In this document: positions 2,968 through 25,280 of the stretch, piece by piece
Position numbering within the stretch: the stretch's first letter is position 1
Layout: the number at the start of each line of letters is the position of its first letter
Virus record (IMG/VR): IMGVR_UViG_3300031539_000254
Span: 1-27,361 of that record
Source: a virus
Direction: 5' to 3' (one strand)
DNA: 27,361 bases
Program-made: the position numbers and the translations under genes
The notes under the pieces: model-generated
The model's database searches: none
The model's input: the letters and a program-made list of their open reading frames with translations, nothing else
What the model was told of the DNA's origin: nothing

Positions 2968-4026
2968 ATGTTGATCGATGCTAAGAAGTTCAGCAAGGCT
3001 TTGGCGATGGTAAAGAAGGTGGCTAGTGCTGGCTTTGGGCCTCAATGTGGGAAGATCAGGTTGAGGGGGGATAGGCTTGAGGCCGCGTCTTTTGGTGTGA
3101 GCATTTCTCTCTCTCTGGAAACGGAAGCAGATTTTGACTGTGTGCTTCCTGTGGATACTCTGGTGGGCGTGGTAAAAGGGTTGAAAGGCGAGCTTAGCCT
3201 AGCTCAGGAGAAGGGATCGATCCTGCTTGAGTGTGGCAAGCACAGGTCTAACATAGCGACCGAGAAGCTCAGTGACTGGAGGATGGTTCCTGCGGGTGAT
3301 GGGGAGGAAGCTGTCCCCGAAAACCTTGACAAAGCACTGGCTTGCTGCCTTAGCGTGATAGCTAAGAGCGAAATTAGAAGCCACTTCAATGGTGTTTCTT
3401 TGCATGAAAATGGGACACAGTTGGTTGCGTCAGACGGGTTTAGGGTGGTCAGATACACCCTGGAAACGGGCCTGCCAGTCAATGATGTGATCTTGCCAAA
3501 AGCGTTTGTGGAGGTTGTTAGCAAGCTAGACAGTATTAGTAGCCTGTCTTATACTCCTGAAAGCTTGAGTGTGCTTTCTAGATCAGAAACCATCTCAGCA
3601 CCAACTATTGTTGGCTGCACTTTTGTTGATGCTGTGTTTCCTAAGGAATGGCTACAGTTTTTCCCAACAGAAGACAGGGGCCAGTGGGTGACGCTGAACA
3701 TGGCAGGGGGTATGACAGACTGCTTGAAACGAATGACTCTATATGAGACGGCAGATTTGTACTTCCCTGGGGTAGACTTTAAGCTAGAGGGAGGTGCCCT
3801 GTTTTGTAATTACAAGGGCAAGCGTACAATCGCAGAGGAAGAGATTGCGATAGACCCTCCTTACACAGGCTTGCCTTGGGAATGGTCTACCTATCCATCC
3901 TACTTGCTGAGTGCTTTGATGTTGTCTCAAGGCAGGTTTACGATAAGACGAAGTCCAGATCTTGTGTGTGCTAAGAGCGAAACCGACCCTGTAGAAGTAC
4001 TTGTGAGCGTTACTGCTAATGGGTAA
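2968..4026 (+). CDS. DNA polymerase sliding clamp (DnaN/beta-like)
   Basis: At 352 aa this is slightly shorter than bacterial DnaN (about 366). The middle contains SHFNGVSLHENGTQLVASDGFRV, cut here for length; it matches the domain-2 signature of the beta clamp, in which a strand is followed by VATDGHR. The usual three-domain layout and the end in a short hydrophilic tail also fit. The clamp encircles DNA and tethers the polymerase, and its polymerase and loader are the next genes. ATG 2968 has AGGGTAG upstream, just behind a terminator hairpin. The stop overlaps the polymerase start by 8 bases, suggesting translational coupling. Bacterial-type rather than T4 gp45-type ancestry is my reading of the sequence. 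Confidence 0.85.
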   Translation: MLIDAKKFSKALAMVKKVASAGFGPQCGKIRLRGDRLEAASFGVSISLSLETEADFDCVLPVDTLVGVVKGLKGELSLAQEKGSILLECGKHRSNIATEKLSDWRMVPAGDGEEAVPENLDKALACCLSVIAKSEIRSHFNGVSLHENGTQLVASDGFRVVRYTLETGLPVNDVILPKAFVEVVSKLDSISSLSYTPESLSVLSRSETISAPTIVGCTFVDAVFPKEWLQFFPTEDRGQWVTLNMAGGMTDCLKRMTLYETADLYFPGVDFKLEGGALFCNYKGKRTIAEEEIAIDPPYTGLPWEWSTYPSYLLSALMLSQGRFTIRRSPDLVCAKSETDPVEVLVSVTANG

Positions 4027-6547
4027 ATCCCTAGCGTTCTATTTGGATCCGGATGCAGCCTGGGAAGCAATGGGTTCTACGGGCAGGCCAAACCGTAGAA
4101 ACATTTCAGGCCCCAAAGGGGGTTGTGAGGGTTGTGTAGGCAAAGATTTTGCCAGGGCCCCAAGAATTCCTGGTTTTGGGGAGAAAACAGGGCTGGTTAT
4201 AGTGGGTGAGGGTCCTGGCGATAGCGAGGACAGGCAGGGCATTCCTTTTGTCGGGGCTACGGGGAGGTATCTCAGAGAGGTTTTGGTTGATCTAGGCATT
4301 CATATGGATAAGGACTGTTTCAGGACCAATGCTTTACAGTGCTATATTCCAAAAGTCAAAAAGACAAAGCAGGTCTTGGAAAAGTGTAGGGCAAACTGTT
4401 TGCACAGGCTGGAGGCAGAGCTACATAAATTAGAGCCTAAGCTGATTCTGTGCTTTGGTGGCCCTGCGGTCAAGTCTGTTTTGAGCCCACCTTTCGGAAC
4501 ACAGATCAGCAAGCTTCGAGGCAGGTTGATCCCCTCCCAAAAGTATCAATGCTGGGTGGCGTGCTTGTTACATCCCTCTTACATTCTCAGGCAAGTGCAG
4601 ATTGCTTCTGACTTTGGTCAAGAGAGTGATATGCCCAGCCTGTTCCGTCAAGATCTGAAGAATGCTCTTAGATATCTGGATATACCTATTGATGAGGTGC
4701 CTTACTTAAATCCGGGAGAGTTTGAGTATGTCACTGATGCAGACGAGGCAATAAGGATTCTGGAAAGGCTGTCAAGATCTGATAGACCTGTGGGGTTTGA
4801 CTATGAAACCAGCCATACTCAGCCATTCAAGGATGATTTTACACTACTGTCTGTAGGGCTGGCAGTCGAGTCAGAAGACGAAGAAATGTCTCGCTGGTTT
4901 ATACCTCTAGACTACAGGGGGCACTGGGCAGACGAGCAGCTAGAAAGTATATACAATGCTCTTAGAGGCTTTTTGCAGTCAGACTGTAAGAAGGTCTGCC
5001 AGGCCATGGATTTTGAGTACAAGGCTTCTGTAGCAGTGCTTGGTGTAAAGCCTAGAAACATAGTGCATGACACTATGGTAGGCGAACATGTCAGGGACGA
5101 GAGGAAGGGTTGTTGCAGTCTGGAGTTCCAAGTCTTCACGTCTTTTGGGGTCACTTACAAGAAGGGGGTTTCGTTCAAGAACAAGAGTCATATGACTGCT
5201 CTTGATTGCCTCCCCTCCTACAATGCCTTGGATGCTGGCTATACCCTTCACCTGTACAAAAAACAGGTTCGTGAGTTGCTGAGCATTCCGAGTGTTTATG
5301 ATGCTTACCAGTTTTTCCATACTGTAGTGCCTGTACTGTCCAGGATGTCTGAGGCTGGAATTAAAGTGGACAGGGTTTTGCTAGAAAAGATGCAGAGCGA
5401 AGCTGAAGAAGAGACTGCTATTTTACTAGAGGATTTGGCAAACCAGCCTTGCGTAGCAGATTTGGCTGAGGCAAGGAAGAAAGAGGTAAATCTGCTAAGT
5501 AATGATGATGTAAAAACAATACTCTATGATGTTCTTGGCCTTACTACCAGACAGAAGACAGAGGGTGGGGACTACTCAGTTAACGAGAAGGCTCTTAGCG
5601 GTCTGCTTGGGAAGAAAGCGCTTTCTACAGAGGCCAGGGTGTTTATCACGGCTGTTCTCAGGCTACGTAAGCTCTGCAAGTTTTCGGGCACCTACACTAA
5701 AAACCTGCTTGACCTGTCAGACGAGAGAGGGCATCTACACCCATCTTACCATTTGCATGTGGCCGAGACCTACAGGTCTTCCAGCAGCGATCCTAACTGG
5801 CAGAATCAGCCTATTCGTGATCCTGAGATGAAGAAGATCCGAAGGGCAGTGGTGCCTTTGCACGGTGACCTTTTTCTGGAGGCCGACTATGCAGGGGCAG
5901 AGGTGCGTGTATTGGCGATGTACTCTCAGGACAAGACCCTGACTACTTACCTGAATGAGGGGGTAGACTTTCACCGAATTTGGGCGAGCAGGATCTTTGC
6001 TGTTCCTGAGGCCGACGTTACCGATGAACAGCGTTTTCAGGCGAAGAACTTGTTTGTCTTCCCATCCTTTTATGGGGCGATACCCGCCTCCATTGCTCAT
6101 AATTTGGGTATGGATGTGGGCGATATAGCTATTCTCCAGGGAGTGTTGTTTCAGGAGTTTCCTGGGGTAAAGAAGTGGCAGGAGGGGGTGCTTGAGGAGT
6201 ACTTCAGCAGGGGCTATGTAAGCACCTTCATGGGTTTTCGCAGGAGAGCCCCGCTGTCTATTAACAAGGTCATCAATATGCCTATTCAGGCTACGGCTTC
6301 CCACCTGCTATTTGATGGGCTGGTCAGAGCAGACGACCTGTTTACAGAGTTCAAGTTTGGAACCAGGCTGGTTGCTCAGATTCATGACAGCGCTCTTTCC
6401 GATACCGTTGAATCTGAGCTAGAGGATGTGTTTGAAACCCTTAGGGCATGCCTTGAGACCAAGAGGTTTGACTGGGAAGGGAAAGTTAAAATGAAATGTG
6501 ACTGGAAGGTGGGGTATAACTGGTTTGACATGGAGGAACTGCTATGA
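4019..6547 (+). CDS. DNA polymerase I with N-terminal UDG-4-like domain and 3'-5' exonuclease
   Basis: This 842-aa replicative polymerase has three parts. Residues 1-200 match family-4 uracil-DNA glycosylase: GEGPGDSEDRQGIPFVGATG (63-82), HPSY (185-188), and cysteines 36, 39, 108 and 123 spaced like the family's iron-sulfur ligands. Residues 255-415 form the proofreading domain, with DYE (261-263), DFEY (331-334) and YNALD. Residues 430-842 form the family A polymerase: motif A DYAGAEVRV (Asp623), finger motif QRFQAKNLFVFPSFYG (Lys676, Tyr685), NMPIQATAS, and motif C IHDS (788-791). Motif C has Ser where most family A enzymes have Glu, and the finger helix is one residue longer than in E. coli Pol I. 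SPO1 phage polymerase has the same UDG-polymerase fusion. The start overlaps the clamp gene and the end overlaps the next gene. Confidence 0.95.
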   Translation: MGKSLAFYLDPDAAWEAMGSTGRPNRRNISGPKGGCEGCVGKDFARAPRIPGFGEKTGLVIVGEGPGDSEDRQGIPFVGATGRYLREVLVDLGIHMDKDCFRTNALQCYIPKVKKTKQVLEKCRANCLHRLEAELHKLEPKLILCFGGPAVKSVLSPPFGTQISKLRGRLIPSQKYQCWVACLLHPSYILRQVQIASDFGQESDMPSLFRQDLKNALRYLDIPIDEVPYLNPGEFEYVTDADEAIRILERLSRSDRPVGFDYETSHTQPFKDDFTLLSVGLAVESEDEEMSRWFIPLDYRGHWADEQLESIYNALRGFLQSDCKKVCQAMDFEYKASVAVLGVKPRNIVHDTMVGEHVRDERKGCCSLEFQVFTSFGVTYKKGVSFKNKSHMTALDCLPSYNALDAGYTLHLYKKQVRELLSIPSVYDAYQFFHTVVPVLSRMSEAGIKVDRVLLEKMQSEAEEETAILLEDLANQPCVADLAEARKKEVNLLSNDDVKTILYDVLGLTTRQKTEGGDYSVNEKALSGLLGKKALSTEARVFITAVLRLRKLCKFSGTYTKNLLDLSDERGHLHPSYHLHVAETYRSSSSDPNWQNQPIRDPEMKKIRRAVVPLHGDLFLEADYAGAEVRVLAMYSQDKTLTTYLNEGVDFHRIWASRIFAVPEADVTDEQRFQAKNLFVFPSFYGAIPASIAHNLGMDVGDIAILQGVLFQEFPGVKKWQEGVLEEYFSRGYVSTFMGFRRRAPLSINKVINMPIQATASHLLFDGLVRADDLFTEFKFGTRLVAQIHDSALSDTVESELEDVFETLRACLETKRFDWEGKVKMKCDWKVGYNWFDMEELL

Positions 6548-6852: not shown

Positions 6853-7808
6853 GTCTTATTGTTGAAGTCAGGCCCACCAGCCTGGACGGGGTTTTTGGTA
6901 ATGCAGAAACCCTGTCTTCCTTGCAAGCTTTACTAGCCAGGAGCAATCTGGAAGCCGTCCCTCATGCGTTCCTTTTCCATGGCCCTCCTGGGTGTGGCAA
7001 GACTACACTGGCTAGAATCATGGCGAGAGAACTGGGCTGTTTTGACACCAATATTGTGGAGATCAATGCAGGGAATCTTCGGGGCATTGACATGGTTAGA
7101 GAGACCATTTGCTCTCATATGAGCATACCTCCCTTCGGGGGTATAATGGCCTATATCATAGATGAATCTCACGCTCTTACTAAGCAGGCTATGGAGTGCT
7201 TGCTTAAGCCCGTAGAGGACGCTCCCAGTTGGTGTTACTTCTTCTTTTGCACTACGGACCTTAGTAAGGTTCTCCCTGCCATAAGGAACAGGTGTTCTGC
7301 CTATACAGTCAGTCCTATCAATGATGATGAAATGATTGAGCTTGTCCTTTTCGTGATGGAGACAAAGGGGATAAGGGTTGAGGACAGCGTCATCTCTGCC
7401 ATCGTAAAAGCGGCGGCGGGCTGTCCCAGGGAGGGCCTGAAGTTTCTAGAACAGGCCAACGGGATGGAGCCTGCTGTTGCTACCCGTTTTTTGGCTACGG
7501 TAGAGGGAGAAGAGACTGAGTGTATAGATATATGCAGGCTGCTGGTTACACCAGTGTTCGGGCATAACAATGAGATAATGGCCCGTTTTGTTTCTTGTAG
7601 AACTAGCTATGAGGGAATAAAAAACAAGGACCCAGAAGCCCTAAGACGTAGTATCTTGGGGTATATGAAAGCATGCTTACTGAGAACCACTAGAATAGAG
7701 GAAGCATCCAGGTATGTGAAAATCATAGAGACCTTTGCTTGTGTAAACCTGCTTTTTGGAGGCGAGCCTGCTTTTATCGCTGCACTTTTCAAAGCTTGCT
7801 CATTATGA
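6849..7808 (+). CDS. AAA+ sliding-clamp loader subunit (DnaX/RFC-like)
   Basis: This 319-aa AAA+ ATPase has the Walker A motif GPPGCGKT (45-52), the Walker B AYIIDESH (Asp105-Glu106), sensor 1 FFFCTTD, and the RNRCS segment (146-150) typical of clamp-loader arginine fingers. Loaders open the clamp and place it on primed DNA; the clamp and polymerase genes are just upstream. I chose ATG 6849 with AAAGGG upstream. Only one loader gene is seen, so the complex may be a homo-oligomer, or partner subunits may lie elsewhere. T4, for comparison, uses gp44 plus gp62. Confidence 0.9.
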   Translation: MSLIVEVRPTSLDGVFGNAETLSSLQALLARSNLEAVPHAFLFHGPPGCGKTTLARIMARELGCFDTNIVEINAGNLRGIDMVRETICSHMSIPPFGGIMAYIIDESHALTKQAMECLLKPVEDAPSWCYFFFCTTDLSKVLPAIRNRCSAYTVSPINDDEMIELVLFVMETKGIRVEDSVISAIVKAAAGCPREGLKFLEQANGMEPAVATRFLATVEGEETECIDICRLLVTPVFGHNNEIMARFVSCRTSYEGIKNKDPEALRRSILGYMKACLLRTTRIEEASRYVKIIETFACVNLLFGGEPAFIAALFKACSL

Positions 7809-7815
7809 GGTGATT

Positions 7816-8007
7816 ATGGAAACCATTGGCTTGATTTTGAAGATAATGGGAGGTTGGCTGTTAGGAACAGGGATGCTTGGTATCAGTATTTATGTGATTT
7901 TCCATTCTGCCAGTCTAGGCTGGTGGGGAGGAATTTTGTACTTGAATAACAGGGCTCCCCAAACAATGCAAACCCCCCCAAAAGGAGATGGCAATGTCGC
8001 GTCTTGA
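7816..8007 (+). CDS. Small membrane protein (63 aa)
   Basis: The product begins METIGLILKIMGGWLLGTGM and has a long hydrophobic stretch through about residue 40 with glycines and tryptophans, consistent with one or two membrane passes. A hydrophilic tail rich in Pro, Gln and Asn follows. GAGGTG lies upstream of the ATG. The 3' end overlaps the start of the single-strand binding protein gene. No family is recognised, and its place among replication genes says little about its role. Confidence 0.6.
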   Translation: METIGLILKIMGGWLLGTGMLGISIYVIFHSASLGWWGGILYLNNRAPQTMQTPPKGDGNVAS

Positions 8008-9022
8008 CGCTATTCGTAAAATGATTGTGGACAAGGAAACAGGCAGGTCTTTCAGAGGCAAGAGTTATATTAACGATGAGCTATTAGCCGAATGGCCGGA
8101 AGGACCAATCAAAAAGTTTCGGTCACAGGCCGGCCAAAACTTCATCAAGATCTTGCCACCCAGACGAGTGGACGCTTATTATGGAGTTGCTCTGTTTGTG
8201 CATAGAGAACTTGGTTGTAATAGTGACTCCTTTATCTGTCCTAACATGACCAGAGGAACGGCTTGTCCTGTCTGTGAGTTTATCAAGAAGATCAAGCCAA
8301 CCCTGGATCTTACTCAAGAAGCTGCAAGGGAATTTATTCGTAAGTTGAGTTGCCTGCCTCCACGTTGGGGTTTCTTCGTGGTGAACATGGCTAGCGACGA
8401 TACCATGGTAGAGGGGCCTCAGTGGTATGATGCTCCCCAGACAATCAACGATCAGTTTCTAACTCTTTCAAAACACCCCAGGACCGGAGAGGTTGTTGAC
8501 TTGTCCGATCCAAGAGAGGGCTGGGAGTTCAGTTTTGTGCGTACTGGTGAGGGCATGAAAACTCGTTATTCAGGCTACAGGCTGGGCAAAAACGAGGCCT
8601 GGGATGATCGCTGGTTGTCCATTCCTGATTTTGATGAAGTCGTAGTAATGTCTTCCTATGAGGAAATTGACGCCGCTTTCGACGCTGGGGTGCTGGATAT
8701 CCCAGGAGCAGATCCTGAGGAAGTTACATCTATGCCTTCTCGTCTCAGCAGGGATGATAAGGACAGCAGGGTTGGTAATGATGATCCGCCTGCTGGCAGG
8801 CCACAGACCTACAGGCAGACCAGCGGGGTTGACGAGGTTCCCGATAACATGACCTTTCGAGACCAGAGACCGGCGGGAGATACTGCAACTAGGGCCCCGC
8901 GAGAAGACGTGGGCAGACTTCTTGAAGAAGAGAGGGCTACCACCGGAGACGACGAGGGTGACGGTGCAGATAGCAGGCTTAAGAGAATTAGAGAGAGAGT
9001 AAGCCGTCGTCTAGAGCAGTAA
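7994..9022 (+). CDS. Single-stranded DNA-binding protein, gp32-like
   Basis: This 342-aa protein has an N-terminal basic region, then a core with a likely zinc site: His70, Cys75, Cys82, Cys91 and Cys94 in HRELGC, ICPN and ACPVCE. T4 gp32 also has a Cys/His zinc subdomain within its DNA-binding fold. The C-terminal third (after about residue 245) is rich in Asp, Glu, Arg and Pro and looks disordered, as in SSBs that use their tail to bind partners, but it ends in a basic segment (RIRERVSRRLEQ). I chose ATG 7994 because AAAGGAG is 6 bases upstream; the ATG at 7988 touches the ribosome site. The replication neighbours support the call. Confidence 0.75.
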   Translation: MSRLDAIRKMIVDKETGRSFRGKSYINDELLAEWPEGPIKKFRSQAGQNFIKILPPRRVDAYYGVALFVHRELGCNSDSFICPNMTRGTACPVCEFIKKIKPTLDLTQEAAREFIRKLSCLPPRWGFFVVNMASDDTMVEGPQWYDAPQTINDQFLTLSKHPRTGEVVDLSDPREGWEFSFVRTGEGMKTRYSGYRLGKNEAWDDRWLSIPDFDEVVVMSSYEEIDAAFDAGVLDIPGADPEEVTSMPSRLSRDDKDSRVGNDDPPAGRPQTYRQTSGVDEVPDNMTFRDQRPAGDTATRAPREDVGRLLEEERATTGDDEGDGADSRLKRIRERVSRRLEQ

Positions 9023-9030
9023 CCAGGACC

Positions 9031-9060
9031 AGGGGGGAGGGGTTTATCTCCTCCCCCCTT
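9031..9060 (+). terminator. GC-rich terminator-like hairpin before the methyltransferase
   Basis: AGGGGGGAGG at 9031-9040 pairs over 10 bp with 9050-9059 around a short loop. Only a weak T run follows (TTAT), so termination may be partial. It lies about 20 bases before the methyltransferase start, resembling the hairpins before the clamp gene and the gene at 14022. Confidence 0.65.
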
Positions 9061-9079
9061 ATCAGCGTAGGAGCTAGTA

Positions 9080-10486
9080 ATGCTGAGAGTTCTGGTTGGT
9101 GATAGTAGGGTGAAGGCTAGTGAGCTAGAACACGATAGTATACAGTTAATTATTTGCAGCCCACCTTATCTGAATCAACGAGACTATAAAGTAGGCGATC
9201 TTGTGTGGGGAGGGACTCCCTTATGTAATCACCAATGGGGAGAAAAGCTTACAAATCCAGCCAGGGATGACAGATCTCCTGCAAAGATGAGGCAGGATGG
9301 GGCTAGGACAGGTAACAACATAAAGAAGACCAAGTTCAACCCCAAAACCTCAGGGGCTTACTGTGGCCTGTGTGGGGCGTGGAGAGGGCCTCTAGGAGCA
9401 GAGCCTGACCCCTGGCTGTATGTGGAGCATCTGGTTGAGGTCTTCGAGGCTTGCAAGCCTGTTTTGAGACCAGACGGACAGCTTTGGGTCAACCTGAACG
9501 ATGGCTGGTGCGGTACTGGCTATGGGAAGGGGACGGGGAATTTTGCCCACAAAAGCACTGATCATTGTATGAAAAAAAAGATGGCTGTGCCTGAGGGCAT
9601 GAAGCGAAAAGACCTGATGGGTCTGCCCTGGATGTTTGCTATGGCTATGCGGGACGCCGGTTGGTGGTGGAGGGCATGGTGTCCCTGGCTTAAACGTAGC
9701 TCTATGCCCGATTCTGCCGATGATAGGCCAGGAAATGCGTTAGAGGTCTGGTTGCAGTTTACTAAAACAGATACCTATTTTCATGATGTGGATGCCGTTA
9801 GGCTCCCTTTGTTAACTGCCGATGGATTAGGCAGACGCAGAAGAAACACAGACTGGTTTTTTGAATCTTTAGAGCTTGTCATTGAACAAATGGAAGATGA
9901 GCTTCTCCAACTGAAGCAGGCTGTAAAGAAGGGAGCCATTACAGAAGGAGAAAACCTGCTGGGTCTTGTTTTCAACCCCGGTGGCGGGATGGATGAGCAT
10001 TTTGCCACTTACCCGCTGGATATGATATTGCCTATCATAAAAGCGGCTACGTCTGAGCATGGGTGTTGCCTTTTTTGCAAGGCTCCTTATACCAGAATAA
10101 TTGTCAAAGCCAATGACCAGGATCCTGCTATAAAGGAGTGGAAAAAGCGGTGTGGTTCTGATGTAGATGGGGTATATACTGGTAAGGATGCACGGGATTT
10201 TGAGTCTAGCGGGGCTCAGTCTCCTGCTTCAGTAAAAGCCAATGTCCTGGCTAATATGGGTAAGCGGGTGCAGATAGGCTGGAGACAGACTTGCTCTTGT
10301 GAACTAGCCGAGCCCGTGGCCTGCACCATACTGGATCCTTTCTGTGGAACAGGGACCAGTCTAGTTGCTGCTAAGACGATTGGGCTTAGTGGTATAGGCA
10401 TAGAAATTGGTGAGCAGCATGCTGAGTCTGCTATTAAACACCTAAAAACCTGTTTTGGGCCACTCATTACTGTTACCAAGGAGTAG
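9080..10486 (+). CDS. DNA methyltransferase, beta-class amino-MTase (N4-cytosine or N6-adenine)
   Basis: The catalytic motif IV SPPY is at residues 27-30 and the AdoMet motif I, DPFCGTGTSLVAA, is near residue 425. This order (catalytic first) marks the beta class. SPPY is most often seen in N4-cytosine enzymes, though some N6-adenine enzymes also use it. The 468-aa length includes a long central insert with CGLCGAW and GCCLFCKAPYTR, which suggests a metal site. No restriction endonuclease is adjacent, so it probably protects phage DNA from host restriction or marks it for another purpose. TAGGAG precedes the ATG. The target sequence cannot be read from the gene. Confidence 0.9.
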   Translation: MLRVLVGDSRVKASELEHDSIQLIICSPPYLNQRDYKVGDLVWGGTPLCNHQWGEKLTNPARDDRSPAKMRQDGARTGNNIKKTKFNPKTSGAYCGLCGAWRGPLGAEPDPWLYVEHLVEVFEACKPVLRPDGQLWVNLNDGWCGTGYGKGTGNFAHKSTDHCMKKKMAVPEGMKRKDLMGLPWMFAMAMRDAGWWWRAWCPWLKRSSMPDSADDRPGNALEVWLQFTKTDTYFHDVDAVRLPLLTADGLGRRRRNTDWFFESLELVIEQMEDELLQLKQAVKKGAITEGENLLGLVFNPGGGMDEHFATYPLDMILPIIKAATSEHGCCLFCKAPYTRIIVKANDQDPAIKEWKKRCGSDVDGVYTGKDARDFESSGAQSPASVKANVLANMGKRVQIGWRQTCSCELAEPVACTILDPFCGTGTSLVAAKTIGLSGIGIEIGEQHAESAIKHLKTCFGPLITVTKE

Positions 10487-16814: not shown

Positions 16815-18300
16815 CAATATTCCTTCCTCTGATTATAAGCTGGTTCCATTAGCAGAGTGGGAGGCGATGTTTGCTGACGCTTCTCCCCACTTTGTTTCCA
16901 CACCCAATACACACCAGTATGCCTCCATTGCCTGGGCCCTGGACAAGGACAGGGTAGTCTTCTGGCATGATGTAGGCATAGGCAAGACTCTGACAGCCTT
17001 GTACACGGCCATTCTGTGGGGCTGCAAAAGAATCTTTGTGGTATGTCCTAACGGAGTAAGGTTTTCCTGGCAAGAGGAAGTGAAGAAGCACTGTAGCGGG
17101 TATGACGTTGTCGTTTTTGATGGACCTACAGAAAACAGGAGAGGTGTGCTTGAAGACTTGGTAGAGAGATTGTATAGAGAACCTGACTACCGTGTTATTA
17201 CTGCAATCAATTACGAAAGCCTTTCTTACCTGTTTGGGATCTCAAAAACTACAGTGATGGGTAAAACCATGCTGAAGTATAAAATCCCACCCGCCATTGG
17301 GGTCATGGGGTTTGACTGCCTTATCCTGGATGAGTTGCACCATCTACGAAGCCATCTGACAAACCAGACACTGATCTGTTGGGCTATGAGTGCTGCTGTG
17401 GACAAGGTTATTGGGCTTACTGGCACGCCAAGGGACCGGTCGGAAGAAGAGCTTTGGTCAGAGTTTTTTGCGGTAGACAGAGGCAAAAGTCTGGGTAACA
17501 ATTACTACAGATTTATGAATACCCATTTCAAAAAGAGTAGGTTCAAATATTATCCTAAGCCAGGAACAACAGAAAGGATTTTGTCCCTTGTTGAGCCTGT
17601 GACAATGAGGTATGACAGAGCAGAGTGCCAGGACCTGCCGTTGATTCTCACCAAAGAAATTATGTGTCCTATGACTGCGGAGCAGAGCAAGGAACTGATA
17701 AAGCTTACTAGCTCAGCCAGAACAATAGGAGAAATGCGGGGTCAGGGTCCTAAGCTGCTGATGGCATGCGGGGGGATTTGTGCTTCTCTGTCGGACGAGG
17801 ATAATATTGTCTTCCTGAAAAATGCTGCTGGGGGGTATCCTTCCTACAAGCTCGATGCCCTTGTAGAAATAGTAGATGAGCTAGCCGGTAAAATCCTTGT
17901 TTTCCATCAGTTTGTGGCAGAGGGGCGGCTTATCGGAAGAATTTTGGAGACACTGGGGTATCCTGTAGTGGAGTTGAGAGGTGAGACCAGGAAGAAACAG
18001 GAAGCCCTGGACAGATTTGTAGAGGATCCTGATGTGAGATGCCTGGTTGCTCACCCCCGGTGTGCCAGCGAAGGTATCAACATTCAGCATGTGACCAACA
18101 ACATCGTTTGGTACAGTCGGGACTGGTCTGCCATAGTACAAAGTCAAGGCGTAGGCAGAATATGGAGAACTGGACAAGAGCGGGAGTGCTTGGTCCTGGA
18201 TCTGATTGTCAAGGACTCTCCTGACGAAGCTGCCTACCGAGCCATACAAAACAAGGCTGACGCTAACCAAGCGATTTTGGATTGGATGACAAATGCTTGA
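16756..18300 (+). CDS. SNF2-like superfamily 2 helicase / ATPase
   Basis: The 514-aa protein carries the full SF2 motif set: DVGIGKT (motif I, residues 72-78), ILDELHH (motif II, DELH), GLTGTP (motif III), ASEGINIQH (motif V) and QSQGVGRIWRTGQ (motif VI). The latter is characteristic of the SNF2/RapA group. Phage members such as T4 UvsW reorganise recombination intermediates and stalled forks. Placement between the replicative helicase and the Rad50/Mre11-like genes fits that role. I chose ATG 16756, where GGAAGAAGAG precedes it; an upstream in-frame TTG at 16726 is possible. The 3' end overlaps the next gene by 8 bases. Confidence 0.88.
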   Translation: MHPAAKASQTAGRLDRDLSDNIPSSDYKLVPLAEWEAMFADASPHFVSTPNTHQYASIAWALDKDRVVFWHDVGIGKTLTALYTAILWGCKRIFVVCPNGVRFSWQEEVKKHCSGYDVVVFDGPTENRRGVLEDLVERLYREPDYRVITAINYESLSYLFGISKTTVMGKTMLKYKIPPAIGVMGFDCLILDELHHLRSHLTNQTLICWAMSAAVDKVIGLTGTPRDRSEEELWSEFFAVDRGKSLGNNYYRFMNTHFKKSRFKYYPKPGTTERILSLVEPVTMRYDRAECQDLPLILTKEIMCPMTAEQSKELIKLTSSARTIGEMRGQGPKLLMACGGICASLSDEDNIVFLKNAAGGYPSYKLDALVEIVDELAGKILVFHQFVAEGRLIGRILETLGYPVVELRGETRKKQEALDRFVEDPDVRCLVAHPRCASEGINIQHVTNNIVWYSRDWSAIVQSQGVGRIWRTGQERECLVLDLIVKDSPDEAAYRAIQNKADANQAILDWMTNA

Positions 18301-19456
18301 GAGTGTGACCTTAAGAGATTTCCAGAGCCACAAGCTTTCTGAGCTTGTGTTTTCCAGTGGTCTGAACGTGATTGTTGGGGCCAGCGATAAAGGCAAGACT
18401 TCTATCATAAGGGCTTTGGAGTGGGTCAGGCTAAACAGGCCACTAGGTGACAGCTTTGTACGTAGAAGCTTACAGGGTAGACCAGCGTCCAGTGCCCATG
18501 TAACTGTAGTGATGGACGGGCATACTATAGAAAGGGTGAGAGGCAAGTCTGGCCCAGATTATAGATTTGATGGGGTGGCTTACAATGTCGTAAACAGGGG
18601 CATACCAGAACCTGTAGTTGCCTTGCTATGGCAAGATATCAATGTACAGAGACAGCTAGACAGTCATTTCTTTGTGATGGACCCTTCATCTCAGTCGGCC
18701 AGGATGGTAAATGAGGCCACAGGTCTGCTTGCAGTGGACAAGATACTCAAGGTCATAGGGGCCAGGGCAAGAGAAGTTGCGGCTAGAGCTAAGTTTGTAC
18801 GTGAGCAGGTGGGTAAGGCAGAGGAGGCCATAGCGGATCCCAGGTGGGCCTTGCTGGATGATTACAAAACCACTCTTACTGAGCTAGAAAGCATAGTGAC
18901 AGAGGGGACGAGACTGGTTGAGCGTAAAGCTTGTTTGGAAACTGTAATTGCATTGATTAATACCCATCAACAGGCATTTGATAGTCAACCTGCTGTGAAG
19001 GAACAGACAGTAGCCTCTGCCGAAGAGATAGTAGAAAGTTTACGCGATTTGGGTCTTGTTTCTGTGGCTAAGTGGGACGAAGCTAGTAGAATCCTTGCTT
19101 GTATAGAGCAGGCAGAAGCTGTAGTGGGTATAGTTGAGCAGCCTGTCATTGATGCAGACGAGATGAACAGGCTTTATCAAGAGATTGTGGGGTGGAGGGA
19201 TGATGAAAAAGAGTTGGCTAGGACAAGGACAGCTTTAATCAACTGTTCTGATTGGGCAGCTAGCTCAGAGATCAAAGCCAGTGAGGCCAGGGAAGCCTAC
19301 AACACCCTTTGGGATAGGCTCGTTGGAGAGCTATCAGAGCTTATTGTCAGTGAGGGAATCTGTCCTGTGTGTAACACAAAGCTTGCTACTGAAGAAAGTC
19401 TTGAGCAGGCTATTGTGAACATGTGTGACCTGCTTTTGGAGACAGGAGATGCTTAA
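18293..19456 (+). CDS. Rad50/SbcC-like ATPase, N-terminal half with zinc hook
   Basis: The 387-aa protein begins MLESVTLRDFQSHKLSEL, the typical Rad50/SbcC/gp46 start. Walker A is GASDKGKTS and a Q-loop-like QDINVQRQ follows. Helical coiled-coil sequence fills the middle, and a zinc-hook CPVC lies near residue 357. It ends about 30 residues after the hook and lacks the signature, Walker B and H-loop. Those occur in the separate gene at 20876, with the Mre11-like nuclease between. The two halves should assemble into one ABC ATPase that tethers DNA ends. The start overlaps the SNF2 stop and the stop overlaps the next gene. Phage gp46-type proteins are usually a single chain. Confidence 0.88.
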   Translation: MLESVTLRDFQSHKLSELVFSSGLNVIVGASDKGKTSIIRALEWVRLNRPLGDSFVRRSLQGRPASSAHVTVVMDGHTIERVRGKSGPDYRFDGVAYNVVNRGIPEPVVALLWQDINVQRQLDSHFFVMDPSSQSARMVNEATGLLAVDKILKVIGARAREVAARAKFVREQVGKAEEAIADPRWALLDDYKTTLTELESIVTEGTRLVERKACLETVIALINTHQQAFDSQPAVKEQTVASAEEIVESLRDLGLVSVAKWDEASRILACIEQAEAVVGIVEQPVIDADEMNRLYQEIVGWRDDEKELARTRTALINCSDWAASSEIKASEAREAYNTLWDRLVGELSELIVSEGICPVCNTKLATEESLEQAIVNMCDLLLETGDA

Positions 19457-19709
19457 GCGAGTTTTGATTTGGGTTTTGTGGTTAGCAGTAATACCTCTTA
19501 TATTTTTTCTTATTTTGCTTGGTTTTAGCTTTGGTTTGAGTTCTGTTATTGACAAAGCAGCCATTGACGGAGCAGCAAAACAAGAGCATGGCCGACAGGG
19601 CTCTATCTACAAAACAACTCACGCTGCTAGGCAGACTGAGGCATATGAAAGAATAGCGGCTGCTTTGGAACGGCTTGCAGATCAGGCAGAAAAGGAGGAC
19701 AAAAAATGA
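19449..19709 (+). CDS. Small membrane-anchored protein with charged tail (86 aa)
   Basis: The product starts MLKRVLIWVLWLAVIPLIFF and continues hydrophobic to about residue 32, a single membrane anchor. It ends in a charged, probably coiled-coil tail (YERIAAALERLADQAEKEDKK). GGAG lies 7 bases before ATG 19449. It overlaps the Rad50 N-half by 8 bases and the nuclease start by 4. A membrane gene inside this repair cluster is unexpected. It might anchor the repair complex, but it could be unrelated. No family is recognised. Confidence 0.6.
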   Translation: MLKRVLIWVLWLAVIPLIFFLILLGFSFGLSSVIDKAAIDGAAKQEHGRQGSIYKTTHAARQTEAYERIAAALERLADQAEKEDKK

Positions 19710-20629
19710 AGCTTCTTCTTATGTCAGACTTGCACATACGGCAAACAAACCCCAGATGCAGGAAAGACAATTTTTGGCAGACCCAGCTAAGCAAATTCTC
19801 TCAGGCAGTAGACATAGCTGTTAAGGAGGGTTGCTCTTTCATTCTACAGGCAGGGGATTTCTTCGACAACCCAAGACAGCCTCTGAGCGTTCTTTTCCAC
19901 TATATTCCTTTATTGAAAAAGGTTCCAGTGCTTACTGTTTATGGACAGCACGATCTTTACATGAGATCTTATGAGGCTGTAGACAAGACAGCTATGGCTC
20001 TGCTGGACCAAGCGGGGATAATCAGGTGCCTGGGGGAGGATCCTTTTCTGGTCGATGACGTAGCCTTTTATGGTGGCTCTTACGGAAGGCCGGTGCCGTC
20101 CCCTTACACCACAGAGGAAAGAAATATTCTAGTTCTGCATGCTCCTGTAGGAACAAAGCAATTATTCCCTGACCACAAACTGGTTTCTCCTGAAGAAGCC
20201 GCTTACGATTACCTGGGCTATGATCTCATCTTGTGCGGTGACTACCACTACCCATTTCAGGTGTTTACAGGAGATCCAGGGACCTGGGTAGTTAACATGG
20301 GGGCCCTTGTTCGTCTGACCATATCTGCAATTGACAGGGCTTTAATGCCTTCTGTTGGGGTATATGATACCAGGATAGACTATGAACACGGGATAACGGT
20401 GCATAAACTGGACGTTGTCCCTTCTGAGGTGGTGTTTGATTTGTCTACTCTTGAAGATGAAGACAAAACTACAGTAGAAATGTTTGGGCTTTTTGATGCT
20501 CTTAAGAGAGATGGCAGGGTAGGAGTGGACTTTGTCCAAAATCTAAGGTTGGCTATGGACAAAAGCACCTTGTGCCCCGACGCAAGGAAAGAGCTTGAAT
20601 CTGTTATAGAGGAGACTAAAGATGAGTAA
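19706..20629 (+). CDS. SbcD/Mre11-like nuclease (T4 gp47-like)
   Basis: The 307-aa calcineurin-type phosphoesterase has MSDLHIR (metal ligands Asp and His), AGDFFDN, YGQHD (in place of the common GNHD), LHAP and CGDYHYPF (in place of GHxH). These are the five metal-binding motifs of the Mre11/SbcD family. The enzyme processes double-strand break ends with its Rad50 partner, here encoded on both sides. AAGGAGG precedes the ATG. The C-terminal part is the usual poorly conserved region that contacts Rad50. It overlaps the coiled-coil gene by 8 bases. Confidence 0.9.
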   Translation: MKLLLMSDLHIRQTNPRCRKDNFWQTQLSKFSQAVDIAVKEGCSFILQAGDFFDNPRQPLSVLFHYIPLLKKVPVLTVYGQHDLYMRSYEAVDKTAMALLDQAGIIRCLGEDPFLVDDVAFYGGSYGRPVPSPYTTEERNILVLHAPVGTKQLFPDHKLVSPEEAAYDYLGYDLILCGDYHYPFQVFTGDPGTWVVNMGALVRLTISAIDRALMPSVGVYDTRIDYEHGITVHKLDVVPSEVVFDLSTLEDEDKTTVEMFGLFDALKRDGRVGVDFVQNLRLAMDKSTLCPDARKELESVIEETKDE

Positions 20630-20879
20630 TATAATGAGCAGGGCTACAGACTTGGTAGCCCGCTTGCATAAGGCCAGGGTGGACAGAGCCAAGGCAGAGG
20701 CCAGTATGGAAGCTGCCATGAAACGGTTGAAAGACGAGTTTGACCTAGACACAGTCGCTGCTGCCAGGGAACGACTGAAAGAGCTAGAAGAAGATATTGC
20801 TGGCAATAAACAGCAAGAGGGTGTCCTTGATACTAAGCTAGACAGGATAGAAAAAGAGGCTTTTGGAGACAGCAGGTGA
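20622..20879 (+). CDS. Coiled-coil protein between the Mre11 and Rad50 C-half genes (85 aa)
   Basis: The product starts MSNIMSRATDLVARLHKARV and is almost wholly helical with heptad-like spacing and high charge (AAARERLKELEEDIAGNKQQ). It might pair with the coiled coils of the two Rad50 halves, replacing part of the missing arm, since all three genes overlap their neighbours. GGAG lies 7 bases before the ATG. No catalytic motif is present; the role is inferred from position and shape. Confidence 0.65.
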   Translation: MSNIMSRATDLVARLHKARVDRAKAEASMEAAMKRLKDEFDLDTVAAARERLKELEEDIAGNKQQEGVLDTKLDRIEKEAFGDSR

Positions 20880-21502
20880 TCTCTCTGGCTGAAAGACAAA
20901 GATTCTTTACCCAGCAGGAAACTATCCTGGATGGGCACAGAAAGGCTTTGAAAGTCCACAGGACGGAACTGGCTGACCTGGAAACCAGGGCTACCTACTT
21001 GGAAGAGGGCAGGAGCCTGGTTAATGACGTAGCTATCGTGACCCAAAGAGAAATAAGTAGCTACATTAGCGACGTGGTTACTCTGGCTCTTGCCAGCATT
21101 TATGGTGACGAGTACTCCTTTGTGGCAGAGTATGAGATCAAGCGGGACATCCCACAATTGGTCTGTACTGTCAGGAAGGGAGACTTGATTCTAGATCCCA
21201 GAGGAGAAGAGGTGGGTGGCGGGGTATTGGATGTATGTGCCTTGGGGCTGAGGCTGGTGCTTTGGTCCCTTTCCAGGTCCAGGGTCCCCTCCCTGCTGCT
21301 GCTGGACGAGCCTTTCAGGTTTGTAAGGAGCCCAGGGCAGGACCTTATGCCAAAGGCGGCAGAGGTCTTGAAAGAACTGAGCAGGATGATGAGTGTGCAG
21401 ATTATTGTGGCTACCCACAGTCCTGAATTGGCAGAGGCAGCAGACTCGGTCTTCGTGGTGACCCAGGCAGACGGGGTATCCTCTGTGGAAAAAAGGCAGT
21501 AG
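20876..21502 (+). CDS. Rad50/SbcC-like ATPase, C-terminal half
   Basis: The 208-aa protein begins with a helical coiled-coil region (residues 1-65). It then has a signature-like VGGGVLDVCAL (the usual LSGGE is degenerate), Walker B and D-loop SLLLLDEPFRF, and the H-loop VATHSPEL. These are exactly the elements missing from the N-terminal half at 18293. Together they can form a full ABC ATPase head at the base of a short coil. The start is GTG, overlapping the stop of the gene before, with GGAG 7 bases upstream. The replication block ends here; the next element is a promoter-led RNA region. Confidence 0.88.
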   Translation: MISLAERQRFFTQQETILDGHRKALKVHRTELADLETRATYLEEGRSLVNDVAIVTQREISSYISDVVTLALASIYGDEYSFVAEYEIKRDIPQLVCTVRKGDLILDPRGEEVGGGVLDVCALGLRLVLWSLSRSRVPSLLLLDEPFRFVRSPGQDLMPKAAEVLKELSRMMSVQIIVATHSPELAEAADSVFVVTQADGVSSVEKRQ

Positions 21503-24608: not shown

Positions 24609-25280
24609 ATGGCTTTACACGGTTTGGGTAGACTTGTGGCTGTTGATCCTAGAGATGGGTTGCACCTGCTCTTTAGAAAGGCTAAGAAGAGCAAGAGGGT
24701 AACTAGATATTGGTATGACAATCGCTGGTGGGCTGACCAGGGCGAGACACCCCACTGTGTAGGCTATGCCTGGGCACACTGGCTGGTCAATACCCCTGTA
24801 ATCAATTACATGGACCCAAACGGGCTATATGCCCTTGCCCAGCAGAATGACGAGTGGCCTGGTGAGGATTATGATGGTACCACTGTCAGGGCTGGAGCCA
24901 AGGTGCTTAGGACCCTTGGGTTTATCCATGAGTATAAGTGGGCTTTTACCCTTGATACCCTTGTGGAAGCTCTACTGGAAAAAGGCCCTGTGGTTGTGGG
25001 TACAGACTGGTATGAGGCCATGTCCAATCCCAATCGTTATGGCAAGATCAAGATAGGGGGTAAGAAGGAAGGAGGGCATGCTTACTTGCTGACTGGAGTG
25101 GATACGAAGAAAAGAGTTTTCAGAATAAAGAATTCTTGGGGTCGTGCCTGGGGTAAACAGGGAAGAGCCCTCATCGGATTTGCAGAAATGAGAATATTGC
25201 TTCGGGAAAAAGGTGAGGCTTGCTTGGCTGTGGAGCGGGCAGTTACATCGGAAGGGTTGCCCAAAGCAGTTAAAAAGTAA
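24609..25280 (+). CDS. Papain-like (C1) cysteine peptidase
   Basis: The 223-aa protein carries the C1 pattern. DQGETPHCVGYAWAHW has the oxyanion Gln44 and the nucleophile Cys50. GGHAYLLTGV has the catalytic His157. RIKNSWGRAWGKQG has Asn175, and the NSWG...WG motif is diagnostic for papain-family enzymes. There is no signal peptide or propeptide, so it would act in the cytoplasm unless moved by other means. Phage homologues are seen occasionally, with unclear substrates. Cleavage of a phage protein or a host defence protein is possible. AAAGG precedes the ATG. Confidence 0.88.
   Translation: MALHGLGRLVAVDPRDGLHLLFRKAKKSKRVTRYWYDNRWWADQGETPHCVGYAWAHWLVNTPVINYMDPNGLYALAQQNDEWPGEDYDGTTVRAGAKVLRTLGFIHEYKWAFTLDTLVEALLEKGPVVVGTDWYEAMSNPNRYGKIKIGGKKEGGHAYLLTGVDTKKRVFRIKNSWGRAWGKQGRALIGFAEMRILLREKGEACLAVERAVTSEGLPKAVKK

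Follow-up and report, generated by a model that had tools for sequence, protein, structure and literature searches.

The stretch of viral DNA analysed here, hereafter the window (27,361 bases, IMG/VR virus record IMGVR_UViG_3300031539_000254), carries on its plus strand, between positions 18293 and 21502, five consecutive open reading frames (ORFs) with overlapping starts and stops, which appear to encode a Rad50 split into separate chains together with its Mre11 partner. In order, these are a 387-aa N-half, a small membrane ORF, a 307-aa phosphoesterase of the Mre11/SbcD type, an 85-aa coiled-coil protein and a 208-aa C-half. The N-half (18293..19456), which corresponds to the N-lobe, outgoing arm and zinc hook of Rad50, contains the Walker A motif GASDKGKT (residues 29-36; 18377..18400), the Q-loop glutamine Q121 (18653..18655) and the zinc hook CPVC (residues 357-360; 19361..19372), which lies 27 residues before the C-terminus. 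The C-half (20876..21502) begins with a returning helix of about 50 aa and continues as the C-lobe, with GGG at the position of the signature motif (residues 114-116; 21215..21223), the Walker B motif LLLLDEP (residues 140-146; 21293..21313) and the H-loop histidine H181 (21416..21418). The nuclease gene (19706..20629) overlaps the coiled-coil gene (20622..20879) by 8 bases, and the latter overlaps the C-half gene by 4 (GTGA). The membrane ORF, which more plausibly starts at ATG 19449 than at GTG 19425, overlaps the nuclease gene by 4 bases (ATGA). The first-pass annotation, made from the letters of the window, had described the two halves as separate proteins with CPVC near residue 357 of 387 and overlapping starts and stops, and ORF coordinates and profiles confirm this description. 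It had also placed a membrane protein, Mre11 and a coiled-coil gene between the halves; all three are there, and the latter two belong to the conserved set, whereas the membrane ORF, located between the N-half and the nuclease, is not conserved among relatives and falls outside it.

Through profile comparison, both halves were assigned to Rad50. The N-half, of the PHROG 16465 type, matches the Rad50/AAA_23 model above the cut-off (E 2.4e-8) and phrog_16465 with E 1.6e-29; its family profile matches Rad50 N-lobes (E 3e-17), and the C-terminal end of that profile matches the Rad50 zinc-hook crystal structures 6zff and 1l8d (E 2e-4). The C-half, of the PHROG 15167 type, matches phrog_15167 (E 7e-23), and its family profile matches the Rad50 C-lobe structures of P. 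furiosus (E 1e-15) and M. jannaschii (E 4e-15). In an alignment of 42 diverse N-halves, Q121 and both hook cysteines are invariant, the cysteines lying 4-27 residues before the C-terminus. The C-half displays GGGVLDV, LLLLDEP and THSPEL, with D144 and E145 invariant and H181 present in more than 90% of 25 aligned C-halves. Its signature departs from LSGG, as GGG aligns with the SGG of Rad50, the serine being replaced by glycine and the two following glycines being kept. The motif sets of the two halves are complementary and do not overlap. In textbook descriptions, Rad50, SbcC and the SMC proteins each consist of one chain with an arm that folds back on itself, and there is still debate over what the arm and hook do. 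Here, each lobe and the coiled coil have a gene of their own, both in the window and in 69 other loci. By function and by most motifs the set is Mre11-Rad50/SbcCD, and by the single-chain and signature-serine criteria it is a non-standard member.

The nuclease matches Metallophos (E 6e-11) and Mre11 in the Protein Data Bank (PDB), and carries the phosphoesterase metal ligands expected of a linked Mre11/SbcD partner. Seven motif positions, D8, H10, D51, H82, D83, H145 and H181 of the nuclease, are invariant in 84 Mre11 relatives. Two further positions are changed in the window, N81 to Q (GQHD for GNHD) and H179 to D (GDYH for GHxH), and these changes occur together in the phage clade of the window (L026-L074), with GNHD to GQHD in 20 and GHxH to GDxH in 21 of the 84 sequences. 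Because both substituted residues can bind metal, the site is expected to be active but altered.

A survey was carried out on 70 loci in which both halves occur on the same piece of DNA, namely the window, 37 viral loci from IMG/VR and 32 chromosomal loci, some of which are near-identical Bacillus prophages, so that the cases are not all independent. A stand-alone homologue of the 85-aa protein was recognised by the family hidden Markov model (HMM) in 69 of these 70 loci, which argues that the coiled-coil protein is a conserved third part of the split Rad50 set; its inclusion, which the first-pass annotation had offered with a "perhaps", has thereby become much firmer. Members of this family are 75-106 aa long, have a conserved central turn and a hydrophobic C-terminus of their own, and are nearly always encoded directly upstream of the C-half. 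The HMM is specific, with no clear match outside the family among 9,153 ORFs, and the protein matches no library family in Pfam, NCBIfam, PHROGs or PADLOC. In the single exception, L073, Mre11 is fused to the N-half (7059-9374), the C-half is separate, and a 141-residue tail follows the hook, the end of which weakly matches the coiled-coil family (E 0.001, tail alone). The N-terminal extensions of three C-halves (L062, L065 and L109) had been considered as fusions of the coiled coil to the C-half, and were rejected as they are not coiled coils and the real gene is separate.

Four genes, for the N-half, Mre11, the coiled coil and the C-half, are conserved together, usually in one of three arrangements: Mre11-N-coil-C in 30 chromosomal loci, N-Mre11-coil-C in 18 viral loci and the window, and N-coil-C-Mre11 in 19. 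Scans of viral contigs with the single halves of the window as queries found no relatives; a two-member alignment used as query retrieved N-halves from 50 viral and 42 genomic loci. A six-member alignment of C-halves was too divergent for a pattern scan. Among sequenced phages, the same split was found in five unrelated genomes, and the order N, Mre11, coil, C of the window recurs in Microcystis phage Mvi-JY20. In Bacillus phage vB_BboS-125, the set comprises an N-half, a 78-aa coiled coil, a C-half and an Mre11 gene that lacks annotation. An N-half, a C-half, Mre11 and a small coiled-coil protein are also all present, with partly dispersed genes, in a 485-kb uncultured phage, in Tunturiibacter phage Tunturi_5 and in Microbacterium phage Magritte. 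In Magritte, two proteins labelled "ASCE ATPase" were examined as N-halves and rejected, as gp247 reads as a sliding clamp and gp4 as a clamp loader; the true N-half is gp155. As a separate observation, the AP2-domain gene inserted between the N-half and coiled-coil genes of vB_BboS-125 (L002) lies at 7401-7973 and is possibly a mobile insertion, and the Mre11 gene of this phage lies at 9241-10221.

The split is seen in about 100 loci overall, including many Bacillota chromosomes, and the C-half is present in 66 of 398 genomes of the phylum. N-half, coiled coil and C-half are adjacent in all 20 additional genomes drawn from the phylum search, and both halves always occur together in the records examined in full. 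The locus, treated in the first-pass annotation as an isolated case, belongs to a widespread family found in phages and on chromosomes. In the tree of C-lobes, branches are long and the L141 row is badly trimmed. Two chromosomal loci appear damaged: around 8894-9442 of L080 the N-half is divided into two ORFs broken by stops (a pseudogene or a sequence error), and around 9299-9930 of L082 both halves are cut short by stops (pseudogenes or sequence errors).

On chromosomes, the set is found in the arrangement recA-(recX)-mre11-N-coil-C-rny or beside HerA. Among 41 chromosomal loci, RecA is nearby in 17, RecX in 7, RNase Y in 12 and a HerA-like ATPase in 13, and among 53 viral loci RecA is nearby in 28-29. 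Archaeal Mre11 and Rad50 are encoded in HerA-NurA-Mre11-Rad50 operons, which the HerA neighbour of some chromosomal split loci recalls. Full-length SbcC (TIGR00618) was found in none of 33 carriers of the split set and in 16 of 32 non-carriers from the phylum to which the carriers belong (Fisher p 9e-7); the genomes compared are interrelated, and only the best first-look candidates were scored, under the same limits for both sets. SbcC occurs in one of 10 further carriers, and the split set of that genome is of the prophage type. The split set appears to take the place of the usual SbcC on chromosomes, and this mutual exclusion would point to a missing repair complex of many Bacillota.

The first-pass annotation had described a very short arm. 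This holds for the window, where about 190 residues separate lobe and hook; in relatives, the length varies. The chromosomal distances from Walker A to hook take only the values 334-336, 381-383, 422-433 and 476-477 (L078-L118), which are spaced about 47 residues apart (Rayleigh R 0.96). In phage N-halves, a 47-aa period is not convincing from length alone (best period 53), and a lag of 47 gives the top self-similarity of the arm in both the chromosomal and the phage sets. The lengths of the coiled coil (median 83 aa) and of the C-half (median 211 aa) do not follow these steps. Because the arm changes by about 47 residues while the coiled coil and C-half keep their lengths, it would be better described as a row of helical repeats than as two simply matching helices.

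In three of the 66 genomes with a C-half (L140, L141 and L142), a single ORF of 684-700 aa joins Mre11, the N-lobe and the C-lobe, with no arm, no CxxC and no coiled-coil gene nearby. Since these proteins hold both lobes in one chain, and arm, hook and coiled-coil gene are missing together, the lobes are linked to each other and the coiled-coil gene is linked to the arm. These fusions represent the strongest indirect evidence for a single head made of both halves together with Mre11, and for the coiled coil as part of the arm.

Taken as a whole, the locus very probably encodes a heteromeric Mre11-Rad50 (SbcCD-type) complex for the processing of DNA ends, with Rad50 built from three chains. The comparative evidence supports the earlier suggestion of a heteromeric Rad50-type ATPase of distinct architecture. 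In such a complex, the N-half would contribute Walker A, the Q-loop, the outgoing arm and its C-terminal zinc hook, and the C-half a short returning helix, the signature motif, Walker B and the H-loop, while the coiled-coil protein of 75-106 aa would complete the arm. The N- and C-half would pair into a single ABC head with a joint ATP site, as suggested by their motifs and by the natural lobe-lobe fusions. Two heads would dimerise on ATP around DNA ends, Mre11 would sit at the base of the arm and cut upon ATP hydrolysis, and zinc-bridged hooks would join two complexes. In the phage of the window, the complex would feed ends to its RecA/UvsX-like recombinase for recombination-dependent replication.

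Several observations weigh against this interpretation. With glycine in place of the signature serine and two exchanged metal ligands in Mre11, activity is not certain. The genes are scattered in Magritte and Tunturi_5, and the N-half of Magritte lacks CxxC. The coiled-coil protein has no solved homologue apart from generic coiled coils; the match of the L073 tail to its family is weak, and the tail of the full-length relative JWF does not match that family. This leaves room for a set in which the split ATPase with Mre11 is real and the 85-aa protein is an independent partner, such as a loader, an inhibitor or a DNA-binding helical hairpin, an alternative that deserves consideration but is clearly the less probable one. 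The protein cannot simply mirror the outgoing helix, given that its length is constant while the chromosomal arm grows by 47 aa at a time, and its own conserved turn and hydrophobic end would fit such a partner; yet its absence coincides exactly with that of the arm, a weakly matching segment follows the hook in cis in L073, and its gene nearly always immediately precedes the C-half.

That the halves form no joint head, each being a separate and possibly homo-oligomeric SMC-like protein, is very improbable: the half genes are up to about 100 kb apart in some phages, but their motif sets complement each other, they always co-occur in fully examined records and they are fused in cis in L140-L142. 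Equally little probability is given to a defence or anti-host system like Lamassu instead of a repair or replication nuclease. The best PADLOC scores of the N-half are to LmuB (48-60 bits); however, LmuB is a single chain, the match in the window covers only the P-loop region (residues 3-45; no specific search for LmuA was made), and the partner of the N-half is an Mre11 nuclease adjoining RecA, RecX, RNase Y or HerA. As for a sequencing or assembly error that broke one continuous gene, the outcome named in the first-pass annotation as refuting the split, overlapping start and stop codons could in principle hint at a frameshift, with no other support found; this explanation is refuted by the presence of Mre11 and the coiled-coil gene between the halves and by the recurrence of the split in unrelated genomes, and the invariance of CxxC across the 42 aligned N-halves also speaks against it.

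No published description of such a three-chain Rad50 was found. In the open-access literature (subscription journals being outside the search), no split Rad50 or SbcC was found, the nearest case being Mre11-Rad50 fusions (PMC3175470). The abstract of that paper presents Mimivirus R555 as a fusion of the two whole partners and describes no split Rad50; such fusions illustrate viral rearrangement of both genes. L073 and L140-L142 are also Mre11 fusions. The genome paper of vB_BboS-125 makes no mention of SbcC, SbcD or Rad50. The split complex has no model of its own in Pfam, NCBIfam, PHROGs or PADLOC. PHROG 16465 ("exonuclease") is the N-half and PHROG 15167 ("ATPase") the C-half, and the annotation of neither identifies it as half of a joint ATPase. 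Phage relatives currently carry names like exonuclease, ATPase or hypothetical protein, which say little.

In comparison with archaeal Mre11-Rad50 (P. furiosus and M. jannaschii; PDB 3qkr, 1ii8 and 3aux), both ABC lobes, the zinc hook and the Mre11 partner are shared, whereas Rad50 of the window is divided into N-half, coiled coil and C-half and has GGG rather than SGG in the signature. Bacterial SbcCD likely has the same role as the split set, but SbcC has about 1050 aa in a single chain, and a Bacillota SbcC scores only about 15 bits with the split-family C profile. Achromobacter phage JWF shares the N-lobe family; its protein is a single 670-aa chain with the hook in mid-chain, and the coiled-coil family is not recognisable in it. 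The chances are about even that, in many phages and in a substantial part of Bacillota, a Rad50 of three chains is the standard form of Mre11-Rad50/SbcC, with a variable arm of 47-residue helical repeats, a C-terminal hook and closure by the small coiled coil, replacing SbcCD in a recA-recX-rny or HerA neighbourhood and sometimes reduced to an armless chain. With the N-lobe and hook, the return coil and the C-lobe as separate proteins, each part could be removed or mixed at will, and the armless fused relatives constitute natural deletion mutants of arm and hook.

Upstream of the Rad50 cluster, the window encodes an RNA ligase, a fusion of uracil-DNA-glycosylase and PolA, a gp32-like single-stranded DNA-binding protein, RecA, a primase, a DnaB-like helicase and an SNF2-type helicase, which form a T4-like replication-recombination module. 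In such a module gp46/gp47 are expected, and the phage setting of recombination and replication is shared with T4 gp46/gp47 and with single-chain phage SbcC. The polymerase gene (4019-6547) encodes a family A enzyme with a 3'-5' exonuclease and the uracil-DNA-glycosylase domain fused at its N-terminus. Elsewhere in the window, a phage gene at 24609-25280 has a papain-family cysteine protease domain, and six phage tRNA genes (Asn, Met, Ser, His, Ser and Thr) lie within 2003-26728, all but one of them downstream of the Rad50 cluster.

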